Source of the DNA: a bacterium
GTDB taxonomy: Bacteria > UBA9089 > CG2-30-40-21 > SBAY01
Length of the DNA stretch: 32,235 nucleotides
Direction of reading: 5' to 3'
NCBI GenBank assembly: GCA_040757115.1
Contig: JBFLYA010000016.1
Coordinates: 1 to 32,235, forward strand
Numbering within the stretch: position 1 is the stretch's first letter; the number at the start of each line of letters is the position of its first letter. The notes under the pieces are model-generated. The model did no database searches. It worked only from the letters and a program-made list of their open reading frames with translations, and was not told the origin of the DNA. A program made the position numbers and the translations under genes. Of this stretch, positions 397 to 27,670 are shown piece after piece.

Positions 397-633
397 GTAA
401 GCGTTCAGGTGGTGTAACAAAAGGAGATGTGGAGATTAAGGAGATAGGGAGATATTATTAAAAAAATTGAAATTAATAGAAACTAATAGAAATTTATGGA
501 AATTTGTTGTTTCCCACAATCAATTTCTACCTATTTCTATAAATTTCAATCTATTTCTATTATCTTATCTCCATATCACTCTTATCTCCTTATCCCCTTT
601 CTTACACTTTTGATATATAGCCTGAACGGTTAC
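397..633. mobile_element. MITE-like inverted-repeat element, copy 1
   Basis: This 237-bp element begins GTAAGCGTTCAGG (397-409) and ends with the inverse CCTGAACGGTTAC (621-633). The two halves are broadly complementary: a purine-rich arm of GGAGAT units on the left, a pyrimidine-rich arm on the right, and an AT-rich palindromic centre, so it should fold into one long hairpin. Nearly identical copies are at 8173-8407 and at the right window edge from 32116. The open frame inside it is also present in the second copy and is not considered a gene. Confidence 0.85.
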
Positions 634-1149: not shown

Positions 1150-1972
1150 TTAATTTATTTTTTCGCCCAAAGCTTCAATATCGGCTAAATCCTTATGACG
1201 GTATAATGCCTTTTTGTTTATAATAAACTCTTTGCGTCCAATAAAATAAACAGGAAGATTACCATATTCTCCCTTTTCTCTACCAACAAATGCAGTATGC
1301 CAATCAATGCCTGAGATAGAGGTAATAATATCAATTCTTACCGGTGGCACCCCCAGTTGAACAACTTTATGTTCAACTGCAAAATCTTCGACAGAAAGTC
1401 TAAGTGAACCAAAACCAAAATCTTTCGACCTGTGAAATAGGTCAACGAGGGAAAAACAAAATTATACTCCACTGCTTGGTGTAAGAAAAGGAGATAGGGA
1501 GATTAAGGAGATAAGGGGATATTATTCTAATTCCACTCTTCTAAAATCTGCCTTTTCTTTAGCAAAGTTTACAAGAATAGCCACCTTTACACCTGCAGCT
1601 TTTAAATCGGTAAATACTCTCCAGAAAACCTGGCCCCAGTGTCTGGTGTACCTTGATAATACATTGAATTATTATCTCAGCAAGTAGATTTTCTTGATAT
1701 TCTTCTCTGATATCTCCATATCCCCTTTATCCCCTTATCCCCCTTCTTATACTAACTACGATCAAAATATTCCTATTTCACAGGTCGAAATCTTTTAATG
1801 CCGCAAGTATTTTTTTGCCATTTTCTACGGATGGTTTTATAAAAATGTCCATATCTCCAGTATATCTGGGAGCACCATGAAATGCCAGGGCATAACCACC
1901 CATAATTAAAAAATCAACCTGATGTTTGTTGAATAACTCTAACAACTCTTTGAAGTCTTGCTGTATTTCCAT
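1150..1972 (-). pseudogene. Nucleotidyltransferase-family gene interrupted by a 362-bp insertion
   Basis: The N-terminal half (1972 down to 1788) carries the polymerase-beta-like motif GGYALAFHG followed by GDMDIFI, with the DxD metal ligands. It stops after KDFDL where the insertion begins. The C-terminal half resumes at 1425 and reads through PPVRIDIITSISG to the TAA at 1150. Removing 1426-1787 plus one 8-bp duplicate restores one frame of 150 codons (…ALKDFGFGSLRLSVEDF…), a normal length for small nucleotidyltransferases related to the AbiEii/MNT toxin-like group. A truncated N-terminal peptide of 64 residues might still be made. Its small partner ORF lies upstream and overlaps it. Confidence 0.85.
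1426..1787. mobile_element. 362-bp inverted-repeat insertion with 8-bp target duplication
   Basis: The ends are perfect 16-bp inverted repeats: CGACCTGTGAAATAGG at 1426-1441 and its complement at 1772-1787. The flanking AAATCTTT is duplicated at 1418-1425 and 1788-1795, and removing element plus one duplicate restores the host reading frame. Inside are inverted GGAGATA-rich arms like those of the 237-bp MITE family. Between them (about 1530-1675, minus strand) is a fragment resembling the C-terminus of a GxxExxY protein (LKAAGVKVAILVNFAKEKAD). No transposase is encoded. Confidence 0.88.
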
Positions 1973-4192: not shown

Positions 4193-4436
4193 GTAACCGT
4201 TCAGGTGGAAATTTACCGCAGAGACGCAGAGGAACAGAGAAATAAATCAGATAACAGAAAAGATTATTGAGGTAATCATTGTCATACATAGGACATCAAA
4301 ACCAAATTATTAATCAATCATGAGATGTCGGGCCTCAAAAGCTTGCTCTGATGAAAATCAGGAATGGAATTCTGCGTATGGTAAATAGTTTTTAATTTTT
4401 TCTCTGCGTCTCTGTGTCTCTGCGGTGAACGGTTAC
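4193..4436. mobile_element. GTAAC-bounded cassette with GxxExxY remnant
   Basis: A 244-bp unit begins GTAACCGTTCAGG (4193-4205) and ends TGAACGGTTAC (4426-4436), with inner CCGCAGAGACGCAGAG arms. Between them lies an N-terminal GxxExxY fragment (see 4245-4301). Confidence 0.7.
4245..4301 (+). pseudogene. N-terminal remnant of a GxxExxY gene
   Basis: The plus-strand translation NQITEKIIEVIIVIHRTSK matches the conserved start of GxxExxY proteins (typically N-ITEKIIG-AIEVHR-LG). The frame then decays and the catalytic region is lost. This is the only GxxExxY trace in the window on the plus strand. Confidence 0.65.
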
Positions 4437-6131: not shown

Positions 6132-6319
6132 GTAACTATTCACCACGAAGAGCACGAAGGGCAGGGAGATGTTACAGAACAAATCTCTTTATGCCTTCTT
6201 TCAATCTTTCCACGTGAATTCAAACAAACCCGGCTCAAGAGTTCGATGCACCGCTATAGTGCCTCCAATGACTCTAATTTATCAAATTTCACTTCGTGTC
6301 CTTCGTGGTGAATAGTTAC
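6132..6319. mobile_element. GTAACTATTCA-bounded cassette between dsrL and dsrD
   Basis: A 188-bp element with inverted ends GTAACTATTCACCACGAAG (6132-6150) and its complement (6301-6319). It encloses a decayed GxxExxY gene. It begins just outside the ribosome site of dsrL, leaving AAGGAGG intact. Confidence 0.85.
6172..6290 (-). pseudogene. GxxExxY remnant with core deletion
   Basis: The minus-strand translation gives the family N-terminus RVIGGTIAVHRTLEPGLFE, preceded by in-frame stops. After a frame change comes the family C-terminus HVERLKEGIKRFVL and a stop at 6172-6174. The central nuclease-like region (about 80 residues) is missing. The head and tail together confirm identity and show an internal deletion. 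Confidence 0.8.
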
Positions 6320-6603: not shown

Positions 6604-7066
6604 AGTAGAGAGTAGAAAGTAGAGAGTAGAGAGATTATTCCCATTTCGCAATTAGTGAATGAAGCATTGCTCTAATCTCATTTAAAACTTGTAGTCTCTT
6701 CTCTATTATTTTTTCAGGCAACAACTTTCTTAACCTCCTATATCTACCCCTACTTTCTCCTACTGAACCTTTAGACATTCTAAAGAAATTCTTAATTTCT
6801 TTTCCCGACTTTCGTTCATATCCTTCTTCCATATTAGCACAGATAGAATCTAAACTTCTCAATTGATTCGATGCTAATATCCTACCTGCAAAACTCTTTT
6901 GAAGCACAGGTAAATCTTCTTCTAAAAAATCTTCAAATAGTCTAACTGCTTTTTGATAAACTTCAAAGTCCTCTACACTCTTTATTGGTTTTCTCTCCAT
7001 TCTCTCTTCTCTCTTCTCTTTTCTCTTTTCTCTCTACTCTCTACTCTCTACTCTCTACTCTCTACC
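6604..7066. mobile_element. GTAGAGA-bounded cassette carrying a four-helix-bundle gene
   Basis: Arrays of the 7-bp unit GTAGAGA (6604-6633) and its inverse CTCTACT (about 7031-7066) bracket the gene at 6635-7000. The unit sits between dsrB and dsrD, two genes normally adjacent. The right array reads into dsrB and supplies its stop codon. No target duplication could be identified. Confidence 0.7.
6635..7000 (-). CDS. Four-helix-bundle protein (S23/IVP family)
   Basis: A 121-residue helical protein with the family signature VEDFEVYQKAVRLFEDF, NQLRSLDSICANMEEGYERKS and MSKGSVGESRGRYRRL, ending in helix four (LNEIRAMLHSLIAKWE). Homologues are encoded inside 23S rRNA intervening sequences in some bacteria and as scattered genes elsewhere. 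Their biochemical role is unsettled, with nucleic-acid binding suggested by basic surfaces. A role in sulfite reduction is unlikely: it is bracketed by repeats and interrupts the dsrB-dsrD junction. A remnant of the same family lies in the dsrJ-dsrK gap. Confidence 0.85.
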   Translation of the reverse strand: MERKPIKSVEDFEVYQKAVRLFEDFLEEDLPVLQKSFAGRILASNQLRSLDSICANMEEGYERKSGKEIKNFFRMSKGSVGESRGRYRRLRKLLPEKIIEKRLQVLNEIRAMLHSLIAKWE

Positions 7067-8172: not shown

Positions 8173-8407
8173 GTAAACATTCAGGTGGTGTAACAAAAGG
8201 AGATGTGGAGATTAAGGAGATAGGGAGATATTATTAAAAAATTGAAATTAGTAGAAACTAATAGAAATTATGGAAATTTGTTGTTTCCCACAATCAATTT
8301 CTACCTATTTCTATAAATTTCAATCTATTTCTATTATCTTATCTCCATATCACTCTTATCTCCTTATCCCCTTTCTTACACTTTTGATATATAGCCTGAA
8401 CGGTTAC
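8173..8407. mobile_element. MITE-like inverted-repeat element, copy 2
   Basis: 235 bp, nearly identical to 397-633. It starts GTAAACATTCAGG and ends CCTGAACGGTTAC. It is inserted inside a GCCACAGAG/CTCTGTGGC hairpin whose arms remain at about 8157-8166 and 8430-8450. It lies in the dsrA-dsrB gap in a presumed operon. Confidence 0.88.
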
Positions 8408-16989: not shown

Positions 16990-17077
16990 GTAACTGTTCA
17001 CCGCAGAGACACAGAGACGCACAGATATTATTATTCTCCTGGTTTTCTCTGTGTATTTCTGCGTCTCTGCGGTTCAC
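16990..17077. repeat. Inverted-repeat hairpin (GTAACTGTTCACCGCAGAG family)
   Basis: The left arm starts GTAACTGTTCACCGCAGAG at 16990 and the right arm ends GCGTCTCTGCGGTTCAC at 17077. Arms and spacer form a ~80-nt hairpin with the same arm sequence as at 3678 and 4436. It lies between the PorV-like gene and the DUF2723 gene. Confidence 0.75.
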
Positions 17078-23021: not shown

Positions 23022-23046
23022 ATTCACTCCTTTTGGAAGTATTTTT

Positions 23047-23123
23047 GCCACAGAGGCACAGAGTGCACAGAGGATTATTTATTTTCTATTATTTTCTCTC
23101 TGTGTCCTCTGTGTCTCTGTGGC
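23047..23123. repeat. Compact GCCACAGAG hairpin between dsrM and dsrK
   Basis: A 77-bp near-perfect inverted repeat: GCCACAGAGGCACAGAGTGC on the left and CCTCTGTGTCTCTGTGGC on the right, with an AT-rich loop. It is the undivided form of the element at 256-678. Its edge overlaps the dsrM TAG stop. In mRNA it would make a long stem directly after the dsrM stop and before the dsrK ribosome site. Confidence 0.85.
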
Positions 23124-24118
23124 TAATCCTTTTCCACCGGGATACCCACCTGTTTCATTCTTTCGCGGTAGTGCTCTTCGTATTCTTCATAAGTATGAAC
23201 TTTTACTGGATAATTCCACGGATTAATATGTCTTTTCATCCGATTATTATTTGCCAGATTTCGAGTTGGACTCAGGAAAATTCCTCCCATATGCACCAGT
23301 TTGCTAAATGGGAAATATATCAACAAGATGCAAACTAAAAACAGGTGGATATAAAAGATGACATTCACATCCGCAGGAATTACCGGTTGAAATCTTAACA
23401 ATCCTAAGGTATATGCCTTTAAACTCACCACATCAACCTTCACAAAATACCTCATCAGAATACCTGAAATGGCTATGGCAATGATTAAAAGAAGAGGGAA
23501 GTAATCCGCAATAGGTAATGAGATGTAATAGACTTTAGGGCTTAATATTCTACGGAGTAAAAGAAACGATATTCCAGCCAAAAGTCCAACTCCGGATAAG
23601 AATACCACCGGTGAACCTATCTCCATAAATCCATCCAGCCTACAAATCAGACTGATACAAGAAGGCACTGGCTCAATAAATAACCGACAATGTCTAATGA
23701 CAACAATAAAAAAAGACCAATGAAAGATTAATGCCGCAAGCCAGAGTAATTTTTCTTCGAGATGAAGAAAGTAAGGACCCTGTTTTAATTGGGTTTGTGT
23801 ATTGCGGAAAAGTGAGCGAAAGAGAAGAATCTCTAAAACCATTCTTCCGATAGCCCCAATACCTGTTGCTGGATTTTCAAAACAGGCACTTTTAATCCAG
23901 GGAAGTGATTTTTGCTGTCCACAGGTCGTTGGTATGCGGAAAGGAACAGGAGATTGTGCCCATCGGACAATGCGCCAAAGGACACCAACAATAAAAATAA
24001 AAATAGCTAAATACGGAATGATAACTCCAAAAAGTAGATGCAGATTTGCAGTTTCTATTCCCAGATATGCCAGTAAAACTAATATTATCACGGCTAATAA
24101 CGGTAATAAAACTTTCAT
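23123..24118 (-). CDS. dsrM: DsrM, NarI-like cytochrome b membrane subunit
   Basis: A 331-residue membrane protein when started at 24118, where ATG overlaps the preceding stop as ATGA (the frame's earlier start at 24130 lies inside that gene). About six hydrophobic helices, with histidines in the membrane (for example FHWSFFIVVIRHCR and FYIHLFLV), are consistent with two b hemes, as in the NarI family. The start has a tandem of hydrophobic segments before FRIPTTCGQQKSLPWIKSA. It carries quinone-linked electrons to DsrK. The C-terminal tail (HINPWNYPVKVHTYEEYEEHY) is the typical cytoplasmic extension of DsrM. Confidence 0.94.
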   Translation of the reverse strand: MKVLLPLLAVIILVLLAYLGIETANLHLLFGVIIPYLAIFIFIVGVLWRIVRWAQSPVPFRIPTTCGQQKSLPWIKSACFENPATGIGAIGRMVLEILLFRSLFRNTQTQLKQGPYFLHLEEKLLWLAALIFHWSFFIVVIRHCRLFIEPVPSCISLICRLDGFMEIGSPVVFLSGVGLLAGISFLLLRRILSPKVYYISLPIADYFPLLLIIAIAISGILMRYFVKVDVVSLKAYTLGLLRFQPVIPADVNVIFYIHLFLVCILLIYFPFSKLVHMGGIFLSPTRNLANNNRMKRHINPWNYPVKVHTYEEYEEHYRERMKQVGIPVEKD

Positions 24119-24561: not shown

Positions 24562-24649
24562 ACAATTTAAACCCTGGATGAATTGCGGATTGTGAATCTG
24601 TATTTTCAGTCCGCAATCCGCAATCCACAATCTGCGATTAATTATACAC

Positions 24650-25145
24650 GTAACCGTTCAGGGCTATACATTAGAAGTGTAAACAAGGAGAAATGGGGAA
24701 AAGGGAGAATTGGAGAAATGGCTCAAACTTTTTCTTGCTCCACCCTTCGGACATCAATCCTGGAGTCTGCGAAATTTACCAGTAACCCTATTTCTTTATC
24801 CACTGCTCTAAGGTATGATCTAACCTGATTATAATACTTCCCACTTATCTCCTCAACAGTTTTAATCTCTACCACAATCTCATCTTCAACAAAAAGATCA
24901 AGTCTATGAACCCCAACCTCGACACCTTGATAGAATATCTTGACTTCTTTTTCTGATTCAAAGATGATGTTCTGTCTTGCAAACTCAACCTTCAAGGCAT
25001 TGTGATAGATGCTCTCCAGAAAACCAGGTCCTAACTTTTTATGGACATTAATACAGGCATTAATAATCCTATCAGTTAACTCTTCTTTTCTCCACTTCTC
25101 CATCTTCTCCCTTTCTCCTCATTTTTATCCTACCTGAACCCTTAC
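24650..25145. mobile_element. Complete GTAA-N3-TTCA cassette with intact GxxExxY gene
   Basis: The left end GTAACCGTTCAGG (24650-24662) and the right end CCTGAACCCTTAC (25133-25145) form an 11/13 inverted pair. The 496-bp unit contains one gene and its own GGAGAAA-rich leader. Its right end touches the dsrC TAA (25146-25148). It inserts a foreign gene into the dsrC-dsrM interval and is the most complete of the family seen here. Confidence 0.75.
24723..25103 (-). CDS. GxxExxY protein, PD-(D/E)XK nuclease-like
   Basis: A 126-residue protein with the name-giving motif GPGFLESIY (G-x2-E-x2-Y, near residue 21). The predicted PD-(D/E)XK core is D51 (HRLDLFVEDE) and E-x-K at 62-64 (VVEIKTVE). The tail QVRSYLRAVDKEIGLLVNFA is typical. 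The core residues are intact, so it could still be a nuclease, although no activity is established for the family that I can state with certainty. It lies within a repeat-bounded cassette and is not expected to act in sulfur metabolism. Five decayed relatives occur in the window. Its 3' end is duplicated at 27545-27656. Confidence 0.88.
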   Translation of the reverse strand: MEKWRKEELTDRIINACINVHKKLGPGFLESIYHNALKVEFARQNIIFESEKEVKIFYQGVEVGVHRLDLFVEDEIVVEIKTVEEISGKYYNQVRSYLRAVDKEIGLLVNFADSRIDVRRVEQEKV

Positions 25146-25481
25146 TTATACACAGCCAGTTGGCTTGGGCAGACCAGCAATTTTACAGGCTTGTTTTGCT
25201 GGACCTGCTGGGAAAAGTTCATAAAGATATTTGTTATTTCCTTTTTCAGGACCAAACATCTTTGCCATCTCTTTTATCAAAATCTTAATCATTGGCGCAA
25301 TTTGATATTCCTTGTAATAATTTCTTAAGAAATTCACCACTTCCCACCGGCGTTCATCCAGCTCAATATCCTCAGTTTTAGCAATGTGCACCGCGACTTC
25401 CTCAGTCCAATCATCTAAATTTTGGAGATACCCTTCTTCATCCGTCTCATAAGTTTTTCCTTTAAATTCAAAACCTGGCAT
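25146..25481 (-). CDS. dsrC: DsrC, sulfur-carrying partner of DsrAB
   Basis: A 111-residue protein beginning MPGFEFKGKTYETDEEGYL, with the core WTEEVAVHIAKTE and RRWEVVNFLRNYY. The C-terminal arm carries both redox cysteines, Cys99 and Cys110, in the pattern C-x10-C with the last residue Val (CKIAGLPKPTGCV). That marks true DsrC rather than the single-cysteine TusE/RspA homologues. During sulfite reduction the arm enters DsrAB and leaves as a trisulfide, the substrate of DsrMKJOP. AGGAGG lies upstream of the ATG. Confidence 0.96.
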   Translation of the reverse strand: MPGFEFKGKTYETDEEGYLQNLDDWTEEVAVHIAKTEDIELDERRWEVVNFLRNYYKEYQIAPMIKILIKEMAKMFGPEKGNNKYLYELFPAGPAKQACKIAGLPKPTGCV

Positions 25482-25552
25482 AATTTTACACCTCCTCTTT
25501 GTTTGGCAATTTATCTCTTATTAAAAGAGTTGTCATTATTGTAAAGTAGAGA

Positions 25553-25610
25553 GTAGAGAGTAGAGAGTAGAGAGTAGAGAGAAAATTTTTCCTCCACCCT
25601 GTTTTTTCCC
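25553..25610. repeat. Left arm of an inverted repeat bracketing dsrN
   Basis: 58 bp from the GTAGAGA array through CTCCACCCTGTTTTTTCCC. The inverse copy is at 27671-27727, with about five differences. The similarity continues well beyond the 7-bp array, so it is not only low-complexity matching. Confidence 0.8.
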
Positions 25611-25950
25611 TATTTTCATTCTCATTTGTGAACCCACGGTTCATAGGCGTTTCCCCTGAAAATCGGGACTCGGGACTCGGGGTTCGGGAAGAAAGAAACT
25701 CTCAGCAATTCCCCCTTAATAAAGGGGGTTAGGGGGTTGTCCTTCTCCCATTTTCATTGCCCTTTGTGAGCCTTGGCTCATGTCCGTTTCCTCTGAAAAT
25801 AGCGAATTAGTGAATTAGTATAGTATCCACAGATTCGTATCTTATGGTTTAGAACAGATATTCCCCCTTAATAAAGGGGGTTAGGGGGTTGTTCTTCCAT
25901 TATTTTCATCCCCCTTTGTGAGCCGCAGGCTCATGAGCGTTTCTCCTTGA
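25611..25950 (-). repeat. Three REP-like hairpins with compensatory changes
   Basis: Copies at 25611-25663, 25750-25800 and 25901-25950 share TTTTCAT…CTTTGTGA before and TCAT…GCGTTTC-CCTGAAAAT after a short stem. The stems differ but still pair: TGAACC/GGTTCA, TGAGCC/GGCTCA (TT loop) and TGAGCC/GGCTCA (GCA loop). A fourth copy at 31090-31141 has TGAGTC/GACTCA. On the minus strand each begins with an AGGAG-like sequence 7-9 bases before an ATG. Confidence 0.8.
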
Positions 25951-27544: not shown

Positions 27545-27656
27545 GTAACCGTTCAGGGCTATACATTAGAAGTGTAAACAAGGAGAAATGGGGAAAAGGG
27601 AGAATTGGAGAAATGGCTCAAACTTTTTCTTGCCCTACCCTTCGGACATCAATCCT
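27545..27656 (-). pseudogene. Duplicate of GxxExxY 3' end and cassette end
   Basis: About 112 bp nearly identical to 24650-24762: the GTAACCGTTCAGG end, its GGAGAAATGGGG spacer, and the last ~13 codons of the GxxExxY gene. It then stops abruptly at AATCCT. GGTGGTGTCT (27486-27495) and AGACACCACC (27663-27672) flank it as an inverse pair. It is a truncated cassette copy in the dsrN-glyQ gap. Confidence 0.85.
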
Positions 27657-27670
27657 AGATTAAGACACCA

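Follow-up and report, generated by a model that had tools for sequence, protein, structure and literature searches.

The window, a stretch of 32,235 nucleotides of contig JBFLYA010000016.1 taken from a draft genome of 4.3 Mb in 462 contigs, carries beside dsrC a small mobile cassette enclosing a gene for a GxxExxY protein (Table 1). The arrangement is probably best explained by two layers, with outer ends of the IS66 type surrounding inner hairpin arms that are recognized by the encoded nuclease, in a manner resembling REPIN/RAYT. At the level of sequence the GxxExxY gene and the seven-base word iterated in its arms are found together, vary together and are dispersed together in the genomes compared. 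To our knowledge the GxxExxY family, although annotated in many genomes, has no assigned function, and no literature linking it with such arms was found in a search that most subscription journals lay outside, so that priority is not claimed. Loci retrieved for comparison are numbered with L and genomes with G.

Outer ends of the cassettes

The window cassette is bounded by a perfect 8-bp direct repeat (24642-24649 and 25146-25153), the right copy of which holds the dsrC stop codon, so that dsrC was left whole by the insertion. The element is absent from the orthologous dsrC junction in the two same-family genomes compared, G002 and G003, where only a short spacer lies between dsrC and the adjoining RsbRD_N-type gene, indicating that the window element is an insertion. 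A first-pass annotation had placed the intact gene between end motifs of the form GTAA-N3-TTCA with the right end at the dsrC stop codon and had regarded small inverted-repeat elements carrying GxxExxY genes as mobile, to be checked by looking for empty sites in relatives. The arrangement is present as it was listed, and the 8-bp duplications together with the unoccupied junctions bear out the mobility.

The end motif GTAANNNTTCA occurs 21 times in the window compared with 1.9 expected from shuffles, all the positions listed earlier being among them (the one given as 621 is 623-633), and 1,660 times genome-wide, where its reversed form gives 173. In 432 kb sampled from this genome, the part on which motif pairing and duplications were measured, 16 of the 67 innermost end pairs are bordered by exact 8-bp direct repeats and none by repeats of 9 bp or more, with no 8/8 match in a shifted control. 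The duplication-bearing elements are 193-546 bp long and enclose complete or remnant GxxExxY genes, or have no detectable content.

The genome has five matches to IS66 transposases, the best being at L041, where a TnpC gene with two stop codons lies directly between GTAACCGTTCAGGTA and TACCTGAACGGTTAC. Around the likewise degraded transposase genes of relatives the corresponding ends are GTAACCGTTCACAGG at L047 and GTAACTATTCAGCACAA at L048, and the ends directly flanking TnpC at these three loci take the form GTAACCGTTCA or GTAACTATTCAGC. An ISBst12-group element caught transposing has ends GTAACTGCTCAGCA and an 8-bp repeat (PMC12898284), and IS66 elements start with GTAAGCG and have target repeats of 8 bp (PMC11946415). 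Based on the shared TnpC-flanking ends and the published ones, the assignment of the GTAA-N3-TTCA ends to the IS66 family, ISBst12 group, is well supported, as is the description of the cassettes as non-autonomous transposons of this family. Their cargo in this genome is a GxxExxY gene, a four-helix-bundle gene or nothing, and GTAA-ended elements enclose four-helix-bundle (IVP) genes at L038 and L040 among the other fetched loci as well. The copies at L003 and L005 have a premature stop at the same codon and yet are located at different genomic sites, and five gene-half remnants of 204-231 bp lie between GTAA ends, with exact duplications at three (L022, L025 and L026), indicating that an intact GxxExxY gene is not needed in cis and that movement occurs in trans.

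GxxExxY matches number 65 genome-wide. Among 43 copies tested, 23 have GTAA-type ends within 330 bp on both sides, 10 on one side and 10 on neither, compared with 1.2% of random placements having both, and copies without GTAA ends (e.g. L004, L006, L008 and L012) still lie within inverted arms. The genome-wide search for an association with the end motif, proposed with the earlier view of GxxExxY genes as cargo of a GTAA-ended family, upholds that view within this genome. The family itself turns out to be of the IS66 type and to carry IVP genes also, and GTAA ends are present on both sides at 0 of 76 testable GxxExxY loci of other lineages, showing that they are a local addition and do not define GxxExxY elements.

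Inner arms across lineages

A profile of the own-genome proteins was used to retrieve 80 loci from a wide range of bacterial and archaeal lineages, the scan being keyed on one conserved peptide and the sample therefore not random. Inverted arms around the GxxExxY gene score above the 99th percentile of same-locus controls at 60 of 78 loci (p 1e-36), and an equal arm score is attained by one of 129 control open reading frames of 90-160 amino acids in those loci. The arms are composed of three to four iterated seven-base words with spacers of 1-4 nt and usually start after AACC or a similar sequence. The words often conform to CRCNRAK, with CACAGAG, CGCAAAG, CGCCAAG, CACGAAT, CGCAGAT and others being seen, and three or more CRCNRAD words are present in 40 of 53 arm pairs, where shuffled arms average 0.25. 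A simple period analysis of the arms failed because of the variable spacers, and inverted-arm scores and the word count were used instead. Among 2.9 million viral contigs just two GxxExxY genes were found, L294 and L295, and the arms of both contain CRCNRAD words.

Co-variation of the protein and its arm word

When the word is mapped onto the protein tree, each of its four variable positions requires fewer changes than in all 300 shuffles. Base 5, which flips about 19 times, tracks two helix-1 residues, 10 and 11 in the numbering of the window protein, being G with Thr-10 or with Glu, Asp, Gly or Ser at position 11 and A otherwise. Arm words overlap the codons for these residues in 8 of 77 loci, which could have faked the link, and the test was therefore repeated on downstream arms only, where no such overlap is possible; the rule is obeyed there in 103 of 115 loci (p 2.6e-15). 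Thr-10 alone is accompanied by G5 in 64 of 66 cases, and phylogenetically independent pairs relating Thr-10 to base 5 give 13.8 changes in the same direction and 0 in the opposite one.

The discovery set comprised 40 loci, with later loci fetched afterwards. A rule that used residue 11 alone and was set ahead of validation was right in 49 of 65 loci, and in 50 of 67 in another run (p 7e-6). The two-residue rule was devised after the errors of the one-residue rule were known, and its 60 of 67 is no clean validation; independent support comes from Thr-10 being the top column when the validation set is scanned alone (z 13.5) and from the phylogenetically independent pairs. A tree test confined to well-supported branches has five pairs only and is not significant (3.4 same compared with 0.1 opposite). 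Base 7 was rejected as evidence of recognition, having few changes on the tree and being clade-linked and almost fixed within deep clades, and a relation of base 2 to residue 76 did not replicate. The co-variation makes it most likely that GxxExxY proteins bind the arms around their own genes, reading the arm word. The first-pass annotation had raised the possibility that the protein acts on its own ends; this finds no support for the GTAA ends, which also surround the IS66 TnpC, and gains support for the inner arms.

Dispersed hairpins without a gene

Word pairs were counted in 26 genomes for CGCCAAG, CGCAAAG and CACAGAG. Where the word is the one used in a genome's GxxExxY arms, it has 24-128, 36-134 and 5-142 occurrences, respectively; the medians for the remaining genomes are 0, 4 and 2 (p 0.004, 0.004 and 0.002). 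Reversed-word controls are near zero for CGCCAAG and CGCAAAG and at most 11 for CACAGAG, and five genomes with an armless GxxExxY locus have few or no dispersed words. Many of the dispersed words form inverted pairs that enclose a short loop but no gene. Exceptions to the enrichment, such as G161 for CGCCAAG and G160 for CACAGAG, may hold further GxxExxY copies.

Fold and conservation of the GxxExxY protein

The window protein matches the TIGR04256 and PF13366 profiles over the curated cut-off, and its AlphaFold model has a pLDDT of 95.7. The best solved structural matches are Cas4 SSO0001 (the top PDB match), MGME1, lambda exonuclease and the AdnAB nuclease domains, and no sequence relatives were found among solved structures. 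As modeled, the fold is Cas4/RecB-like with conserved catalytic residues. Gly-27, Glu-30, Tyr-33, Asp-69, Glu-79 and Lys-81 are invariant in 78 sequences, with Gln-93 and Tyr-97 conserved in at least 90%. In a difference from Cas4, GxxExxY proteins have only about 125 amino acids and the iron-sulfur cysteines are not seen in the alignment consensus; a Cas4 profile gives no match for the window protein and weak ones for L001 and L117 (E about 4e-4 to 5e-4), and there are no cas genes among the scanned window proteins. The pN/pS ratio is 0.09-0.18 for most type-A pairs and mostly 0.27-0.5 for type-B pairs (excluding the misaligned L017). The protein has been maintained by selection, though single copies decay.

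Elements in the window

Table 1. Coordinates of the dsrC-proximal cassette and of related elements in the window
Feature	Position	Strand	Details
Mobile cassette with GxxExxY gene, IS66-type ends	24650..25145	.	496 bp; inverted ends and 8-bp duplication
Target-site duplication, left copy TTATACAC	24642..24649	.	Identical to 25146-25153
Target-site duplication, right copy TTATACAC	25146..25153	.	Contains dsrC stop codon
Outer end GTAACCGTTCAGG, IS66/ISBst12 type	24650..24662	+	Same end borders IS66 TnpC at L041:893
Outer end, right copy CCTGAACCCTTAC (GTAAGGGTTCAGG on - strand)	25133..25145	-	Partner of 24650-24662
Inner arm, four iterated 7-bp GGRGAAA-type words, 1-2 nt spacers	24686..24721	+	Read from sequence; inverted-arm score 20.5
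Inner arm, inverted partner of 24686-24721	25084..25119	-	Overlaps first codons of GxxExxY gene
GxxExxY gene, predicted Cas4/RecB-like PD-(D/E)XK nuclease	24723..25103	-	126 aa; PF13366 E 2.7e-36; TIGR04256 E 8.8e-38
dsrC, intact	25146..25481	-	PF04358 E 9e-47
Gene-less element, 237 bp	397..633	.	8-bp duplication ATCTTTTC; arms ~88-90% identical to type-C GxxExxY cassette
Gene-less element, 235 bp, same family as 397..633	8173..8407	.	8-bp duplication GACTTTTT
Type-A GxxExxY cassette, internally deleted	4193..4436	.	By DNA; 8-bp duplication CATTTCTT
Type-C GxxExxY cassette, internally deleted	1418..1796	-	Ends CGACCTGTGAAATAGG, not GTAA; 92-93% identical to L009
Left-end fragment of window-type cassette	27545..27659	+	97% identical to 24650-24764
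Gene-less hairpin, type-A arms, one adjoining GTAA end	16990..17073	.	
Gene-less CACAGAG hairpin without GTAA ends	23044..23126	.	Shared with same-genus G001; not in G002 or G003

The reading of the 237-bp miniature inverted-repeat transposable elements (MITEs) as gene-less derivatives of the cassettes, put forward in the first-pass annotation, agrees with their arms, those common to the MITEs at 397 and 8173 and the type-C cassette L009 extending over 50 bp at 90% and 43 bp at 88% identity. The same annotation had put five further GxxExxY traces in or beside inverted-repeat elements, several with the GTAA motif. This is so for 4193-4436, 27545-27659 and 1418-1796, the last with ends of another type and with traces of E 7e-17 and 1e-12; the traces at 6204-6275 (E 4e-4) and 292-381 (E 5e-4) are weak. 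The type-C cassettes L007, L009 and L010 all have ends CGACCTGTGAAATAGG, and further inverted motifs such as CTAACCGCACAGGTCGAA are placed beside them and at L045, so that one or more additional families of MITE ends are nested here.

In G001 (L358 1841-2110) the CACAGAG hairpin is kept at the junction matching window 23044-23126, with extra sequence in its interior that contains a GTAACTATTCA end, as though another element had inserted there. A 350-bp stretch upstream of dsrC (window 25545-25900) is part of a different repeat family, of which both this genome and G001 have dozens of partial copies.

Relation to known systems

The cassettes share with the ISBst12 group of IS66 and its MITEs the ends GTAAC(T/C)(A/G)TTCA(GC) and the 8-bp duplication. 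In that group a single TnpC gene lies between the ends, whereas the cassettes here have, in place of a transposase, a GxxExxY or IVP gene set within nested inverted arms.

The inner layer resembles REPIN/RAYT (TnpA-REP, REPtron), in which a single-domain nuclease gene is flanked by hairpins with matched recognition (PMC3116915, PMC8266576). A further likeness is the dispersal, in the same genome, of gene-less hairpins carrying the gene's own flanking motif. The enzymes differ, RAYT being an HUH tyrosine enzyme and GxxExxY a PF13366 protein of the PD-(D/E)XK Cas4-like type, as do the repeats, since REPs are tagged with GTAG, whereas the GxxExxY arms are iterated CRCNRAK-type 7-bp words lacking it.

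The intervening sequences (IVSs) of 23S rRNA with their S23/IVP protein likewise consist of an inverted repeat whose loop holds a small gene, and the Coxiella IVS was reported to have heptamer repeats immediately ahead of its IVP gene (PMC4990558). At 22 of 29 IVP loci, here and in other genomes, inverted arms built from exact tandem heptamers are above control. The protein family is different, GxxExxY is not known from rRNA, and its words are spaced by 1-4 nt whereas the IVP heptamers have an exact period of 7. The window also holds an IVP gene (TIGR02436, 6635-7000), separate from the GxxExxY gene, within inverted arms of tandem AGTAGAG heptamers (6604-7059). PF05635 matches number 26 in this genome, and in other lineages the IVP loci are built alike, from heptamers of unrelated sequence. 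At L031 (1251-2060) copies of a CRISPR-like repeat, GACCTGATGAATAAGGGATTGCGAC, flank an IVP element whose arms are GGGACTC heptamers, and the adjacent intervals hold similar heptamer hairpins.

Proposed mechanism and alternatives

In the two-layer explanation an IS66-type transposase would act in trans on the GTAA ends and duplicate 8 bp of the target, as the observed duplications support, and the GxxExxY protein would bind its arms, as the co-variation supports. The nuclease may then cut at or near the arms in the form of a DNA hairpin, a cruciform or a single strand, and repair or replication may copy the hairpins with the gene included or not. This copying would not be classical transposition because target duplications at the inner arms are lacking. 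Arm binding, cleavage, copying and mobility brought about by the nuclease are inferred from the sequence comparisons, the most likely role of the enzyme being to recognize and process the hairpins and so aid their spread or persistence, as is thought for RAYT with REPINs.

Several observations weigh against this explanation. Within the outer layer, a visible 8-bp duplication is present at none of the complete IS66 copies, and no live IS66 transposase was found in the genome, the sole full-length copy having two stops. Within the inner layer, the subfamily of the window protein (word GGRGAAA) lies outside the co-variation set, target duplications at the arms outside this lineage give no signal (8.3% compared with 5.2% by chance), and no exact empty site was obtained for the inner element alone. 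GxxExxY genes are absent from phages and nearly absent from plasmids and viral contigs, which is unusual for a mobile gene. The co-variation would also fit arm binding solely for self-regulation or transcript processing.

The latter possibility, in which the arms serve as operator-like iterons or as a processed RNA stem as in the 23S rRNA IVSs and the protein controls its own gene or transcript with no part in hairpin spread, is unlikely while deserving some weight. The arms overlap or adjoin the start codon, IVS stems in rRNA are cut by RNase III (PMC4990558), and the inner arms are without target duplication, all in keeping with such control; the downstream arm, however, matches as well as the upstream arm, the same word is dispersed genome-wide in gene-less hairpins, and the nuclease residues are kept in the protein. 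It is improbable that the GxxExxY genes are pure passengers, host nuclease genes picked up by IS66-type MITEs with the arms merely sub-terminal transposon sequence. Cassettes with a shared stop or half a gene at separate sites and the enclosure of IVP genes by the same ends speak for passengers, yet most loci of other lineages have iterated inverted arms and none of the 76 has GTAA ends, and arm word and protein co-vary, so that for the inner layer this reading is already unlikely. A GxxExxY protein serving as the transposase of the GTAA-N3-TTCA ends would account for the 23 of 43 copies lying between such ends and is very improbable indeed, given that the ends surround IS66 TnpC with the IS66-typical 8-bp duplication, enclose unrelated IVP genes and are absent at GxxExxY loci elsewhere.

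Implications

The two-layer explanation extends, tentatively and with the balance tipping slightly to the other side, to the proposal that there may be a class of genomic hairpins across Bacteria and Archaea for which GxxExxY proteins serve as dedicated enzymes. A minimal Cas4-like nuclease would read a 7-bp word through residues of helix 1, iterations of the word would make up both the inverted arms flanking the nuclease gene and the gene-less hairpins scattered elsewhere, and the protein would diverge in step with its word. If true, the RAYT/REPIN way of life would have arisen in a second, unrelated form, and IVP with its heptamer arms would be a sister case. Linking GxxExxY to the inverted CACAGAG-, CGCAAAG- and CACGAAT-type repeats of many environmental genomes provides the family with a testable role and allows a base of the partner repeat to be predicted from the protein sequence. 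Should the nuclease spread the hairpins, it would represent a new type of enzyme for miniature mobile DNA; should it only bind them, the pairing would still constitute a readable protein-DNA (or RNA) code.
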